Notes under the pieces: generated by a model
Database searches by the model: none
Seen by the model: the letters and a program-made list of their open reading frames with translations, nothing else
Told to the model about the DNA's origin: nothing
NCBI GenBank assembly: GCA_913774715.1
Contig: CAJYHS010000099.1
Location: 1 to 64,000, forward strand
Length of the DNA: 64,000 nt
Reading direction: 5' to 3'
From: an uncultured Siphonobacter sp.
GTDB lineage: Bacteria; Bacteroidota; Bacteroidia; Cytophagales; Spirosomataceae
Made by a program: the position numbers and the translations under genes
Shown: in pieces, positions 8,836 through 39,327 of the stretch
How positions within the stretch are numbered: the first letter of the stretch is position 1
Layout of the letters: each line of letters begins with the position of its first letter

Positions 8836-9132
8836 ATGATTTCTTTACTGGAGTTGGAGCAATCTCTAAGTGCACTAGTATCACTTTATATTGAATTTGA
8901 TTTTGAATTAGAGCTCCAATGCATTCGCCAAGATAATGCATGGGTGTCTGTCTATTCTAGTTCTATAGAAAGAGCTATTAATGCGCATCGAGCTATTAAA
9001 AAATATCCACAATTATACGAAGAAATTTATAATGATTTTCTTGATGAATTTATGAAACATCAAGAAGATATTGCTGAGATACTGGATGTGAGAAATCAAT
9101 GGAGAGATTACTTTAAAGAAAGGAAGAAGTAA
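8836..9132 (+). CDS. Hypothetical small acidic protein
   Basis: 98 aa ORF with coherent helical, charged composition; isolated in an otherwise ORF-poor region. Confidence 0.55.
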   Translation: MISLLELEQSLSALVSLYIEFDFELELQCIRQDNAWVSVYSSSIERAINAHRAIKKYPQLYEEIYNDFLDEFMKHQEDIAEILDVRNQWRDYFKERKK

Positions 9133-10509
9133 ACGATTGTGTGAAGTAGATAACTGCTTGGGCACAAAAATAACGACTTGGTTTATATAATGCCCTTTAA
9201 ATAAGCATAGGCTACTGCTCCTTTGGAGGGTAAGCCAGGATAATAGGAGTGATTAGCACTCAGATTTGTAGTTAGCTATACGATAGACTCTTGGCTAAAA
9301 AGTATCCTTACCTACCATTAGTTTGAAATCGGGCTCTCTACTAAATCGAATCGAAACCCAAGCATTCCATCAAGGAGGCTTATTTCTGGATACTTCCCCC
9401 ATAGACGATCGCTGTGATCATGCCGTCATAGTAAGAATCCCATCAGTCCTGTGCATACTACGCCGGAGGCGCTTGCAACAAAGTGGATCCTACTATTTCA
9501 GTTTTAGGATAAATAACGCACCTGTAAACCTTCAAGGCTAGCTAGCAAACGGCGGTAGTAATTGGCGTACGCCCAAAAATAGACCTTACCGGCCAAAGGC
9601 AATAAGGTCTACCAATCGCTACGCCTATGCAATAGAACGGTTAAGGTATTGTACCCTCTAGAATGTAGCTCACTCCTTTGCGGGTGGGGAGCTTGAGGAT
9701 ATAATAGCCTTGTTGACGCGTGGATTCAATACCCTGATGGCTAAAGGGAAAAGCACTTCGGATAAGACATTCTTCGCCCGTGAGATTATTTTTCCAGCTG
9801 CTACTGAAAATCAGTACATAAGCCAGGGTAATGAGTGGAATGGATATGGAAGAAGACGCAATCTTTAGAGTATTCAGTGGCACTCTAAAAGTAAGCTATC
9901 CTTCATATCTGCTTTGGAATTATGGATAGATCTCAACATTTCAGCCCCCAACGCAGGAGACTTTTCAACTATCTATTTCATAGAATAACATCCGGCCGGA
10001 ATAGTATTTGTATAAAAATAGATGTCAACAAATGTAAGAAAAGGCCTAAGTCCTTTGTTCGTTCAATTCCTCCTGAAAGGCAAACTCAGAATTAGAGCTT
10101 TGGGAAGAGCCTGCTAAGTTCTATAACTGTGTTGCAAAAACAAGCGACGGTAAAAGTTAGAAAACTAATAGAAATAATGGCACTGAGTTTACCCGGTGTT
10201 CGTTGGAAGAACGCCACTTGCAGGATACCAGGCTATCAAAAGATTTACCAATGCGTTGGCCGCTGACAATCGTATTGCACCGTCTTTAGTAAATACCCCG
10301 CGGGCAGTTTCCTTGTTAAATGCATAGCACGAAATGGAAACTAGCCCATTCAGGTATTCGCTCAAACGAATTGGTATAGCAGCAGATACCACAAACAGGG
10401 CAACGTTTTTCTTTTAGAGAAGACCGTTAGATGACCGGGTAAATTGTAAATGTTGATAGCGCAACGACACCATTAAAATATCCATGTAAGTACTATGTTC
10501 TTTTAAAAT

Positions 10510-32807: not shown

Positions 32808-35800
32808 ATGCACCATTTAAAGCAAAAGCTTTTTACATTATTAGAAAGCGATGATCATTTTTTTTCCTTTTTCCAAGAGTCGGGATTGTGGATTTGGGAT
32901 GTTTTACACCCTGATCATCACTGGATGAGCCCTAATTTTTGGAAAAAGCTGGGCTATGAACTCAACGACACTCCGGACCTGCTTCAAGGCTGGCAACAGC
33001 TAATCCACCCCGATGATATTGCGTTTCTTACTGAGCAACTTCAAACGTATTTGACCGACCCAGAGGCCGTTTTTGACGTGCATGTAAGGTATTTGCATAG
33101 GCTAGGATCCATCGTCTGGTTTCGTTGCCGGGCTATAGCTATGCGTGATGAGCAAGGAAAGGCTACTTTATTAGCAATTAGTCATTTGGATGTTACTCAG
33201 GAGAAAGAAGCCGAGTTAAAAGCTCTACAACAATCATTACTCTATGAATACATTTTAAGCAGTCAGATCCTGTACGTAGCTAAAATGGATTTAAGGGGTC
33301 AGTATACGTTTGTAAGCCAAACCTACGCCGAGTCTTTAGAGGAGACCGGAGAGGTTCTACTTGGAAAACGGGCTATAGACTTAGTCATAGCCGAGGATGT
33401 AGCGCTTTGCCAGCAAACCCTGCAGGCTTGCCTTGATCATCCTTTGGTTTCCTATACCATCCAGGTTCGAAAACGAGCAGAGGGTAAATCCATTCAGACC
33501 TACGAGTGGAATTTGACGGGTCTGGAAGATAGTTCCGGTCAGGTGAGCGAAATTTTATGCCTGGAACGTGATGTCACGCAAAGCATAAAGACTCAAACTA
33601 ATTTATCGGTTTTGCTTTCCAGCATGAGTGATATTCTTTCCATGACTACGCCCGAGGGAATGATCACGTATTTATCACCCGCTTGGACGAAAATCCTGGG
33701 CTACTCGGTAGAAGAGTGTCTGGGAAAAACGATCGGAGATTTCTTGCACCCTGAGGATATGCCCCGGGCTTTTGAAACGGTTGAATTGGCTATGAATCAG
33801 CAAAAGGCCTGTTTTGAACATCGAATCAAACATGCTCAAGGCCATTATATCTGGATGGAAACCAAGGCTACTATTCCTAACGGCAATGAAGAAATTGTTT
33901 GGACGAGCCACGATATTCACCAGCGAAAAAAGGCCGAAGAGGAACTTTTAAAAACCAAGGCATTACTCGAAGAAACGAGTCGGTTAGCCAAAGTGGGAGC
34001 CTGGGAGATGATGATGGATAGTGACCAATTATACTGGTCAGAGGTAACTAAGGAAATTCACGAACTGCCCGCCGATTACATTCCTGAGCTTTCCCAAGGG
34101 ATTAACTTTTATGCTTCTCAAGAAGCCCGCGACCGCATTCAGGCGGTGGTAGAAAAAGCAATGATTGAGGGAACCTCCTGGGATTTAGAAGAGCAGATTC
34201 AAACCGCTAAAGGAAATCTTCGCTGGGTACGTACCATTGGGCAAGTAGAAATGGTAGACGGTAAGGCCGTACGCATGTTTGGTACGTTTCAGGATATCGA
34301 CGATCGGAAAAAAGCGGAACAGGAAACTCAGAAAGCCCGTCACCAGGCCGAAGCTGCCAGTAAGGCTAAGTCGGAGTTCATGGCCAATATGAGTCATGAA
34401 ATTCGAACGCCCTTGAACGGGGTCATTGGTTTTACCGAACTGCTTTTGAAGACGCCCCTGGATGAAAATCAGCGTCTTTATCAGAAAACCGTGTACGATT
34501 CGGCTAATTCACTGCTGAATATTCTCAATGATATTCTTGAGTTTTCTAAAATAGAAGCGGGTAAACTCTCGCTCGTGGCTGAAAAAACGGAACTTGAATT
34601 ACTCGGTCAACAGACGCTGGATCTTATTACGACTCAGGCTCAGAACAAGGGTCTGGAAGTACTCTTTTATAAAGAAAGCCAGGTGCCCCACTGGATTTGG
34701 GTGGATGAGCTGCGGCTGCGGCAAGTACTGGCTAATTTACTCAGTAATGCCGTTAAGTTTACTTTGCAGGGAGAAATAGAGTTGAAAATTAAAGTCCTTG
34801 AAAAAGGACATGGGGAGAGTCTGCTGCGCTTTTCCGTATGCGATACGGGAATTGGCATTGAAACGGAAAATCAGCGTAAAATTTTTGAAGCCTTCACCCA
34901 GGAAGATCTTTCGACGACCAAAAAGTTTGGAGGTACGGGTTTGGGTTTGACCATTTCCAATCGTTTGCTGGGCTTAATGGGAAGCCAGCTTTCGCTCAGT
35001 AGCGAAATAGGAAAGGGAAGCTGCTTTAGCTTTGATTTACGCTTGCCTACGGCTAGCGAGCCGCCTGAAGAGGCAAAAGACTGGCCGTATCTAGACCGGA
35101 TTAAATCCCTGCTCATTGTGGATGATAATGCTTCTCATCGGCGGGTTTTAGAGCAGATGCTTCTAGAGCAGGAAATTAGCTGTCGGCTGGCAAAAAATGG
35201 ATTAGAGGCCCTGGAACTCTTGAGTAGTGAATCTTTTGATGCGGTAGTGATGGACTATCAAATGCCCTATCTCAATGGATTGGAAACGCTTGAAAAAATG
35301 AGCGCTTTTACTTCAGTGCCGCCGGTGCTGTTGATGGTTACGATTTCGCAAGGCTTAGAGCTGGAAAAAAGCGGAAAACCTCTTTTAATGAAGCCTCTGA
35401 AGCGAAAGCAGCTTTTTACTTCCCTTTCCAATCTCTTTGAACCAGAGCAGCAGGCGATCACTCCGCAAGTAGCGGCAGTGGATGTGCCGCCCCAGAATTC
35501 AAACGGAAAAGAAGCAACGGCTTCCATTCTCATTGTGGAAGACAATGCCGTCAACCGCTTGCTTGCTAAAAAGCTCATTGGGTCGCTCAGGCCGGATCTT
35601 AGCGTACACGAAGCCCACGACGGCAAACAGGGCGTGCAGGCCTTTGTCGAGCATCAGCCCGATCTGATTCTCATGGATATTCAAATGCCGGAAATGAACG
35701 GCTATGAAGCCACGCAGGAAATTCGCAAGCTAGAGTCGGGCCATACGCCCATTTTGGCCCTTACGGCGAGTATTTTACCCGGTGAAAAAGAAAACTGCAT

Positions 35801-35897
35801 GGCCGCTGGTATGGATGACTATTTAACCAAGCCCATTGCCCGTACCGTACTCGAGCAGGCTCTGGTAAAATGGTTACCCGTGCATCTCCCTTTGTAA
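32808..35897 (+). CDS. Hybrid sensor histidine kinase/response regulator, paralog of 22573-25656
   Basis: Same four PAS-HisKA-HATPase-REC-REC layout; [88 protein letters not shown]. Confidence 0.94.
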   Translation: MHHLKQKLFTLLESDDHFFSFFQESGLWIWDVLHPDHHWMSPNFWKKLGYELNDTPDLLQGWQQLIHPDDIAFLTEQLQTYLTDPEAVFDVHVRYLHRLGSIVWFRCRAIAMRDEQGKATLLAISHLDVTQEKEAELKALQQSLLYEYILSSQILYVAKMDLRGQYTFVSQTYAESLEETGEVLLGKRAIDLVIAEDVALCQQTLQACLDHPLVSYTIQVRKRAEGKSIQTYEWNLTGLEDSSGQVSEILCLERDVTQSIKTQTNLSVLLSSMSDILSMTTPEGMITYLSPAWTKILGYSVEECLGKTIGDFLHPEDMPRAFETVELAMNQQKACFEHRIKHAQGHYIWMETKATIPNGNEEIVWTSHDIHQRKKAEEELLKTKALLEETSRLAKVGAWEMMMDSDQLYWSEVTKEIHELPADYIPELSQGINFYASQEARDRIQAVVEKAMIEGTSWDLEEQIQTAKGNLRWVRTIGQVEMVDGKAVRMFGTFQDIDDRKKAEQETQKARHQAEAASKAKSEFMANMSHEIRTPLNGVIGFTELLLKTPLDENQRLYQKTVYDSANSLLNILNDILEFSKIEAGKLSLVAEKTELELLGQQTLDLITTQAQNKGLEVLFYKESQVPHWIWVDELRLRQVLANLLSNAVKFTLQGEIELKIKVLEKGHGESLLRFSVCDTGIGIETENQRKIFEAFTQEDLSTTKKFGGTGLGLTISNRLLGLMGSQLSLSSEIGKGSCFSFDLRLPTASEPPEEAKDWPYLDRIKSLLIVDDNASHRRVLEQMLLEQEISCRLAKNGLEALELLSSESFDAVVMDYQMPYLNGLETLEKMSAFTSVPPVLLMVTISQGLELEKSGKPLLMKPLKRKQLFTSLSNLFEPEQQAITPQVAAVDVPPQNSNGKEATASILIVEDNAVNRLLAKKLIGSLRPDLSVHEAHDGKQGVQAFVEHQPDLILMDIQMPEMNGYEATQEIRKLESGHTPILALTASILPGEKENCMAAGMDDYLTKPIARTVLEQALVKWLPVHLPL

Positions 35898-35977: not shown

Positions 35978-37354
35978 TTAAGTAGAACTGGTCTTTTTTA
36001 AGGGAAACTCCGGGGGCAGGGTTTGACTGCGACCATCGCTCAAATAAATGCGATTGTTCTTCTCGTCAAAGCTTTTGATGTGACGGGTATTGGCTAGAAT
36101 GTGGGGCAGGTACGGGCTTAGCAGGGTAAAATCATAGTTTTCCTGCAAAGCCAGACTTACTTTATCTAATACCGTATCCGATTCAATGCGGTTACCGTTG
36201 ATGAGATGAATCGTGTAGGGGGTGGCCAGAAACGAAATATTATCGACGGCAATGTATTCTCTTACTCCCTTTCGTACATCCACGTGCACCCGGTCACGAA
36301 CGATGAGTTCTTCTTCTTCGGATTCGGGTTCCAAGCGGTTGGAAAGCTCCCAGGTGCGGATGGTCTTGGTCATGAGTTCATTTTCAACCAAAAAACCATC
36401 GTGGCCGTAGAGAGAGTCAATTTCAGTTAATTCAGCCTGGGGAATATATCGGGCTAAAAACCGCTGCTCTTCGACAGGAAATAATACGTCCGACTGAATG
36501 CCGATAATAAGGGTCTGGGCTTTAATGCGGTTCAAGGCCGACATGGCTCCGCCGCGATTTCTGCCCACATCGTGCGAATCCATCATTCTCGACAGACTAT
36601 AATAGGAAAAGGCATTGAACCGGGTAGCAATTTTTTCTCCCTGATACCGCTGATACGAACTGGCCCTGAAATGCTCAAGCACAGATTCTTCGCGGGCCTG
36701 GGTATACTCGTACATGACTGCACTGCGATAACTCAGTAGAGCAGTGGCCCGGGCGGCTTTCATGCCCATGCTGCCCGCGTCCGCTCGCCGCTCCTGCCAG
36801 GTTTGATCAGCTTCAATGGCCATGCGCTGGGACTCATTAAAGGCAATACCCCAAGGCGACATGCGGGCATTGGTGGCAATTAGAATGAGCTGTTTAAACA
36901 GCTCCGGCTTTTGAATGGCCCACTCTAGAGCCTGCTGCCCGCCCAGGGAACCACCTACAAGCATACTAACGTGATGAATTTGTAAATACTCCCGCAACAG
37001 ATCCAGGCTTTTGACAACGTCACGAATGGTCACTAGAGGAAAATCCTGATAATAAGGCTCCTGCGTAAGCGGGTTAATCGAAAGAGCCGAGGTAGAACCG
37101 TAAGCCGAGCTAAGCACGTTAGCGCAAACAATAAAGTACTGCCTCGTATCGAGCAACTTTCCTTCACCCACCAGTCCACTCCACCAATCCGTCACGTCTG
37201 AATTACCCGTCAGGGCGTGACAAATCCAAACCACGTTATCCGCGGTAGCGTTTAACTTTCCAAAGGTGTGATAGGCTACCTCAATTTCGGGTAACGTCTC
37301 TCCGCATTCCAGGTCAAACGGCTGCGGATAGTGAAAAATCTGTAACTCAGACAA
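35978..37354 (-). CDS. metX: Homoserine O-acetyltransferase with a ~125-aa C-terminal extension
   Basis: [76 protein letters not shown]; 458 aa total. Confidence 0.93.
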
Positions 37355-37456: not shown

Positions 37457-38824
<1,368 letters not shown>

Positions 38825-38960
38825 TCAGGATGCAACCAACAACAAGAAGAGTCACCACCCTTGCGGGCGGAAGCCTTAAAAAGAAAACAAGGGATTGAAT
38901 AGGAGGGCAGAGTAGCAGCCCCCAAGAGAAGGGTCGTCCGGTGCATGAAAGTTCGCTTTA

Positions 38961-39076
38961 CTTATCTCCCCCCGAAGACCTTCTTCGGGGCAGGAATTAG
39001 CACCTTGTTTACGTGATGGTTCGTAAATAGGTTGCCAGCGGTTCACAGAGCCCGTCTCTCCCCGCTTCTCGATAAG
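38961..39076 (-). ncRNA. SAM-I (S-box) riboswitch upstream of metY-metX
   Basis: Minus strand: CTTATCGAGAAGCGGGGAGAGACGGGCTCTGTGAACCGCTGGCAACCTATTTACG...AAGGTGCTAATTCCTGCCCCGAAGAAGGTCTTCGGGGGGAGATAAG; P1 CTTATC/GATAAG and conserved GGTGCTAATTCC core. Confidence 0.95.
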
Positions 39077-39327
39077 TCAGCATGGTTCGGGCTGACTTTT
39101 CAAGAGCAAACTTAAAAAGGAATGCTCATATGTGGAAAGAAGCAGGATCGTTTTTTGCAGAGAAGGCGTTATAAAATCTTAAGAAGGAACCAGATTGCTT
39201 GTTTTAAAAGCAGGTCATCAACAACAAACCAGCCGGAAAAGCTTTACGAGGGAACATGAACTTTCCCGGTAAGGAAGCACTACTTTTGTAAAAACGTCAG
39301 CAGCTTAGACTGACTTTAGGATCACTT

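Follow-up and report, generated by a model that had tools for sequence, protein, structure and literature searches.

The window, by which we mean the whole 64,000-nucleotide stretch of DNA analysed from an uncultured Siphonobacter sp., carries a methionine biosynthesis locus on its minus strand. A SAM-I riboswitch (RF00162, 79.7 bits) was found at 38959-39078 (-), and this bears out the claim of the original prediction that such an element lies upstream of the operon. Positioned 200 nt downstream of it is metY (37457-38758, -), a gene of the Cys/Met metabolism PLP enzymes (PF01053, E 2.7e-130), which by family and context probably encodes O-acetylhomoserine sulfhydrylase. The metX gene (35978-37354, -) follows on the same strand after a gap of 102 nt. 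We observed that the SAM-I element was present at the metY-metX locus of relatives both with and without the MetX tail described below. The riboswitch is therefore not specific to the fusion, and does not account for the tail. A large hybrid histidine kinase gene with several PAS and two receiver domains (32808-35897) runs toward metX, and ends 80 nt away from it.

The metX frame encodes 458 residues, the length originally given for it. It begins with a TTG codon, which has no ATG upstream of it and is preceded, a few codons away, by a stop in the same frame. This start (TTGTCTG) was common to the metX copies of 6/6 Siphonobacter genomes. MetX was by far the best matching family for this protein, with TIGR01392 covering residues 11-334 (E 5.6e-105), although the scores lay below the reference values (351 bits for TIGR01392 against an NCBI curated cut-off of 500, and 321.7 for PRK00175 against 331). 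The predicted catalytic triad, Ser136 (in GGSLGGQQ), Asp289 (SDVLF) and His318 (YGHDGF), was intact, aligned with that of solved MetX enzymes, and was invariant in the six species. Identity to other homologues from Bacteroidota was about 55-65% over residues 1-340. By family match and triad, the window protein is a probable MetX homoserine O-acetyltransferase. The second MetX-like gene of the genome was only 26% identical to it, which indicates that this genome has no true MetX other than the tailed protein.

The catalytic part could be delimited to residues 1-335 (36350-37354, -) from three sources: the NCBIfam MetX models, which stop at residue 334-335; the solved MetX structures, whose alignment to the window protein ends at residue 327-343; and the ends of the tail-less homologues in sister genera. 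What remains is an extension of 123 residues (336-458; 35981-36349, -), in agreement with the "about 125" residues predicted beyond the catalytic end. It opens with an acidic linker of 17 residues (336-352; 36299-36349, -), whose length and acidity are kept in the six species. The LytTR-derived domain (353-452; 35999-36298, -) comes next, supported by its profile alignment to stand-alone LytTR proteins and by the enrichment of LytTR among its weak genome matches. The extension as originally quoted had the right length, but the quoted sequence skipped the acidic linker, a run of 20 letters.

We examined the distribution of the tail among the genomes of relatives. It was found in 6/6 Siphonobacter genomes searched (that of the window and five others), while the MetX of 44 other relatives ended without it. 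When the tail alone was used as the query, the six Siphonobacter genomes were the only ones to match among 59 relatives, and all 217 genomes outside Siphonobacter lacked it in a set of 223 from the family. In 395 genomes of the class, just three matches were seen outside Siphonobacter, all partial or broken, and none of them LytTR. Among 329 genomes of the order with a MetX, no match listed from outside Siphonobacter spanned the tail; a survey of Cytophagales MetX homologues of this kind had been suggested in the original prediction. A scan of a collection of 84,980 species yielded four Siphonobacter loci as the only ones aligning through the tail. Its occurrence in six genomes, at 67-94% identity to the window copy, shows that the tail does not stem from an error in a single assembly.

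Five longer MetX frames of other genera were also checked. Four of them were explained by open frame 5' of the start or had normal ends. The fifth, from another family of the order (G206:C1:4727600-4730400), encodes a MetX with an unrelated C-terminal extension of about 150 residues, mostly helical-looking, which matched RiboL-PSP-HEPN below threshold (E 0.003). The MetX frame of a second genome of that genus is just 361 residues long.

The tail alone was not recognised by any Pfam or NCBIfam model. The Pfam LytTR model (PF04397) gave no match to it up to E 10, and the gathering score was not reached. For profile-profile comparison, we used 20 stand-alone LytTR proteins gathered by the Pfam LytTR model from the window genome and related ones, with three proteins found by the tail profile itself left out. 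With hhalign, the tail profile aligned to this set end to end over 79 columns, with a score of 36.5 (P = 7e-6). The maximum was 25.0 in 300 column shuffles and 26.6 in 200 block shuffles, and the reversed tail scored 15.8. Response-regulator-type LytTR domains on their own gave a score of 14.0, which was not significant (P 0.07), and both kinds pooled gave 29.2 (P 1.6e-4). The scores of 36.5 and 14.0 place the tail closest to the stand-alone kind of LytTR.

As an open-ended test, a profile built from the six tails was run over the genomes of the relatives. The two best matches outside Siphonobacter were LytTR proteins, with two further LytTR proteins among the weaker ones, and all four were confirmed by Pfam (E 1.6e-7 to 1.9e-18). 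In the family-wide search, 10 of the 43 matches examined sat in LytTR open reading frames, against an expected 0.5-1% or so (each genome has 19-45 LytTR matches among some 5,000 genes). The binomial chance of this at an assumed 1% is 1e-11, or 1e-7 when near-duplicates are discounted to 7/40; since related genomes are not independent, these figures are a guide only. Taken individually, the genome matches were at E 0.003 and worse and not significant, and in a class-wide sample the three best were not LytTR. The closest single protein was a stand-alone LytTR of a sister genus (L229:6179-6532; E 2.6e-4 in a set of 52 sequences). Together, the controlled profile comparison and the nature of the weak genome matches support the LytTR-like reading of the original prediction, and the derivation of the tail from LytTR by a remote homology that lies below Pfam detection.

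The gene of this closest protein lies ~2.4 kb from an S-adenosylhomocysteine hydrolase-like gene (8890-10284), probably by chance. Stand-alone LytTR genes are few in Siphonobacter genomes, with one found in the window genome (G000:C155:123234-123515, L191). A sister-genus genome (G006) has more than 10 of them, and another genome (G001) carries two LytTR frames with internal stops. A LytTR gene next to metX in the relatives was considered as a local source of the tail, and none was found within flanks of 1.5-4 kb. PDB sequences were searched with the tail profile, which gave two matches, both due to chance.

Structure prediction was of low confidence. AlphaFold, given six close sequences, reached a pLDDT of 44 for the tail and 39 for the full-length protein. 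The order of elements in this low-confidence tail model, E-E-E-E-E-H-E-E-E, is what a LytTR domain would give. When the same model was compared with the PDB using Foldseek, AgrA LytTR structures ranked 2, 4 and 7, but their E-values were about 1 and their TM-scores low, so that the model lends the LytTR reading weak support.

We further estimated the selection acting on the tail. Identity to the window copy across Siphonobacter was 67-94% for the tail and 80-94% for the core. In the pairs with an estimable dS, the tail had a Nei-Gojobori dN/dS of about 0.01-0.15 and the core one of 0.02-0.06; these values are rough, since dS was saturated or undefined in many pairs. The low ratio indicates that the tail is a translated, constrained protein segment. 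It was kept at full length and without stops in the six species, with about half of its columns invariant. The dN of the tail exceeded that of the core (0.246 against 0.137 for the window copy and locus L012, and 0.187 against 0.074 for the window copy and L093). As judged from these substitution rates, the tail is under purifying selection, which in the more distant pairs is weaker than that acting on the core. These observations bear on the idea that a LytTR gene was joined to metX by accident, and has persisted mainly because it is harmless to the enzyme. The faster evolution of the tail would fit such a relic, as would the lack of a known partner or ligand. However, the low dN/dS (where estimable), the intact length and the invariant columns argue against it, and we regard it as rather unlikely.

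We then compared the tail with LytTR at the place of the DNA-contact motif. The FFRCHNS motif of AgrA makes its DNA contacts via R198, N201 and S202, and H200 is also required for binding, while F196 and N206 are among the residues whose change to alanine destabilises the protein (PMC4227749). In joint alignments, the motif of the stand-alone relatives reads F-x-R-(I/V)-H-(R/K)-x-(Y/F)-(L/I)-(I/V)-N, and the segment at this place in the tail is the 14 residues F409-N422 (36089-36130, -). The first Phe and the last Asn are kept, but the contact residues between them are replaced and there is a 3-residue insertion. The stretch F409-TLLSPYLPH lacks the F-h-R-h-H-R-S motif, of which Phe alone is retained, and the positions equivalent to AgrA R198, H200, N201 and S202 have all been replaced. 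The original prediction was correct in stating that the RxHRS segment is replaced; the segment is, in addition, broken by the insertion. By motif order, the kept Phe and Asn correspond to AgrA F196 and N206, so that the tail retains fold positions and has lost contact positions. The SRRRK that ends the stand-alone LytTR proteins is LPPEF in the tail; AgrA R233 sits in this terminal region. The net charge of the tail is 0 to +2, as compared with a median of +8 (range +4 to +12) for stand-alone LytTR.

The replaced contact segment, the missing SRRRK and the fall in charge together make DNA binding by the tail unlikely, and the tail is best described as degenerate for this function. This weighs directly on the trigger-enzyme-type regulator offered as an option in the original prediction, in which the tail would bind DNA and the full-length MetX would regulate its own operon or other genes. 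LytTR ancestry speaks for it, as does the default expectation of a DNA-binding ancestor in this family. Nevertheless, with every DNA-contact region checked and the positive charge lost, and with a SAM-I riboswitch already serving the operon, as it does in the tail-less relatives, we consider such a regulator improbable. Equally improbable is a tail unrelated to LytTR, be it another small beta domain such as PRC-barrel or a new Siphonobacter-specific domain: the absence of a Pfam match and one weak tail-profile match in a PRC-barrel protein (E 0.1) would favour it, but the LytTR alignment runs the whole 79 columns, whereas PRC-barrel (PF05239) gave an hhalign score of 13.4 over 17 columns, within the shuffled background and far from the 36.5 of stand-alone LytTR.

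The reading that we prefer, with a probability of roughly 60%, is that the tail derives from LytTR, has degenerated with respect to DNA binding, and is retained by purifying selection to serve the sole MetX as an accessory module. In the Siphonobacter ancestor, a single fusion would have attached a stand-alone-type LytTR domain, via the acidic linker, to the C-terminus of its only genuine MetX. The domain would afterwards have lost its DNA-contact segment, its basic C-terminal motif and its net positive charge, with the fold-core positions retained across the genus. The tail would then act in the protein and not on DNA, by stabilising the MetX assembly, contacting a partner or tuning activity allosterically; MetY, encoded next door, would be the obvious partner candidate. 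What was observed is the fusion, with its conservation, its confinement to the genus, its profile likeness to LytTR and the lost DNA-contact features; a single origin, a LytTR fold and a role in protein contact or allostery are what we infer. Known MetX enzymes form dimers through the lid domain (PMC6937278), and the tail should therefore not be needed for that dimer. Of the two options originally put forward, an allosteric or accessory module would be the better one, on the residues compared here, as against a trigger-enzyme regulator. A more specific version, in which the former transcription-factor domain has become an allosteric sensor on the first committed methionine enzyme, responding for example to methionine, SAM or the state of MetY, is rather unlikely; if true, it would mean a control at the enzyme level working beside the riboswitch.

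If the preferred reading of a retained accessory module is true, a DNA-binding regulator domain without its DNA-binding surface has been reused within a core metabolic enzyme. The time window of the fusion would be the stem of Siphonobacter, and the tail-less enzymes of sister genera provide ready controls. Decayed domains such as this tail are missed by annotation pipelines.

LytTR domains are known in fusions with sensor and with receiver domains, and some archaea have a MetX fused to CBS domains. To our knowledge, there is no known case of a LytTR-MetX pairing, and we found no work in the literature searched that links LytTR with homoserine acetyltransferase, or LytTR with Cytophagales. In its order of strands and helix and its length of about 100 residues, the tail resembles the stand-alone kind of LytTR (PF04397), with which it shares the same positions (I-x-x-x-(D/N)-I, YT, H-L-x-N-G, F and (I/L)-x-N). 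It differs in the replacement of RxHR(S/A) with the 3-residue insertion, in the absence of SRRRK and in its near-neutral charge, and it is fused to an enzyme, whereas LytTR occurs free or together with a receiver domain in one protein. The AgrA LytTR structures (PDB 3bs1, 4xqj) were matched at E about 2e-8 by a profile of the tail combined with ordinary LytTR, made up mostly of ordinary rows; AgrA retains the DNA contacts R198, N201 and S202 (PMC4227749), and the tail does not. The window enzyme is like other Bacteroidota MetX (TIGR01392) in its catalytic triad, its metY operon and its SAM-I riboswitch, and those outside Siphonobacter are without this tail among the homologues listed. Domain fusion in which the ancestral activity is lost is a known phenomenon; the LytTR-MetX pair would be a new instance of it, in one genus.
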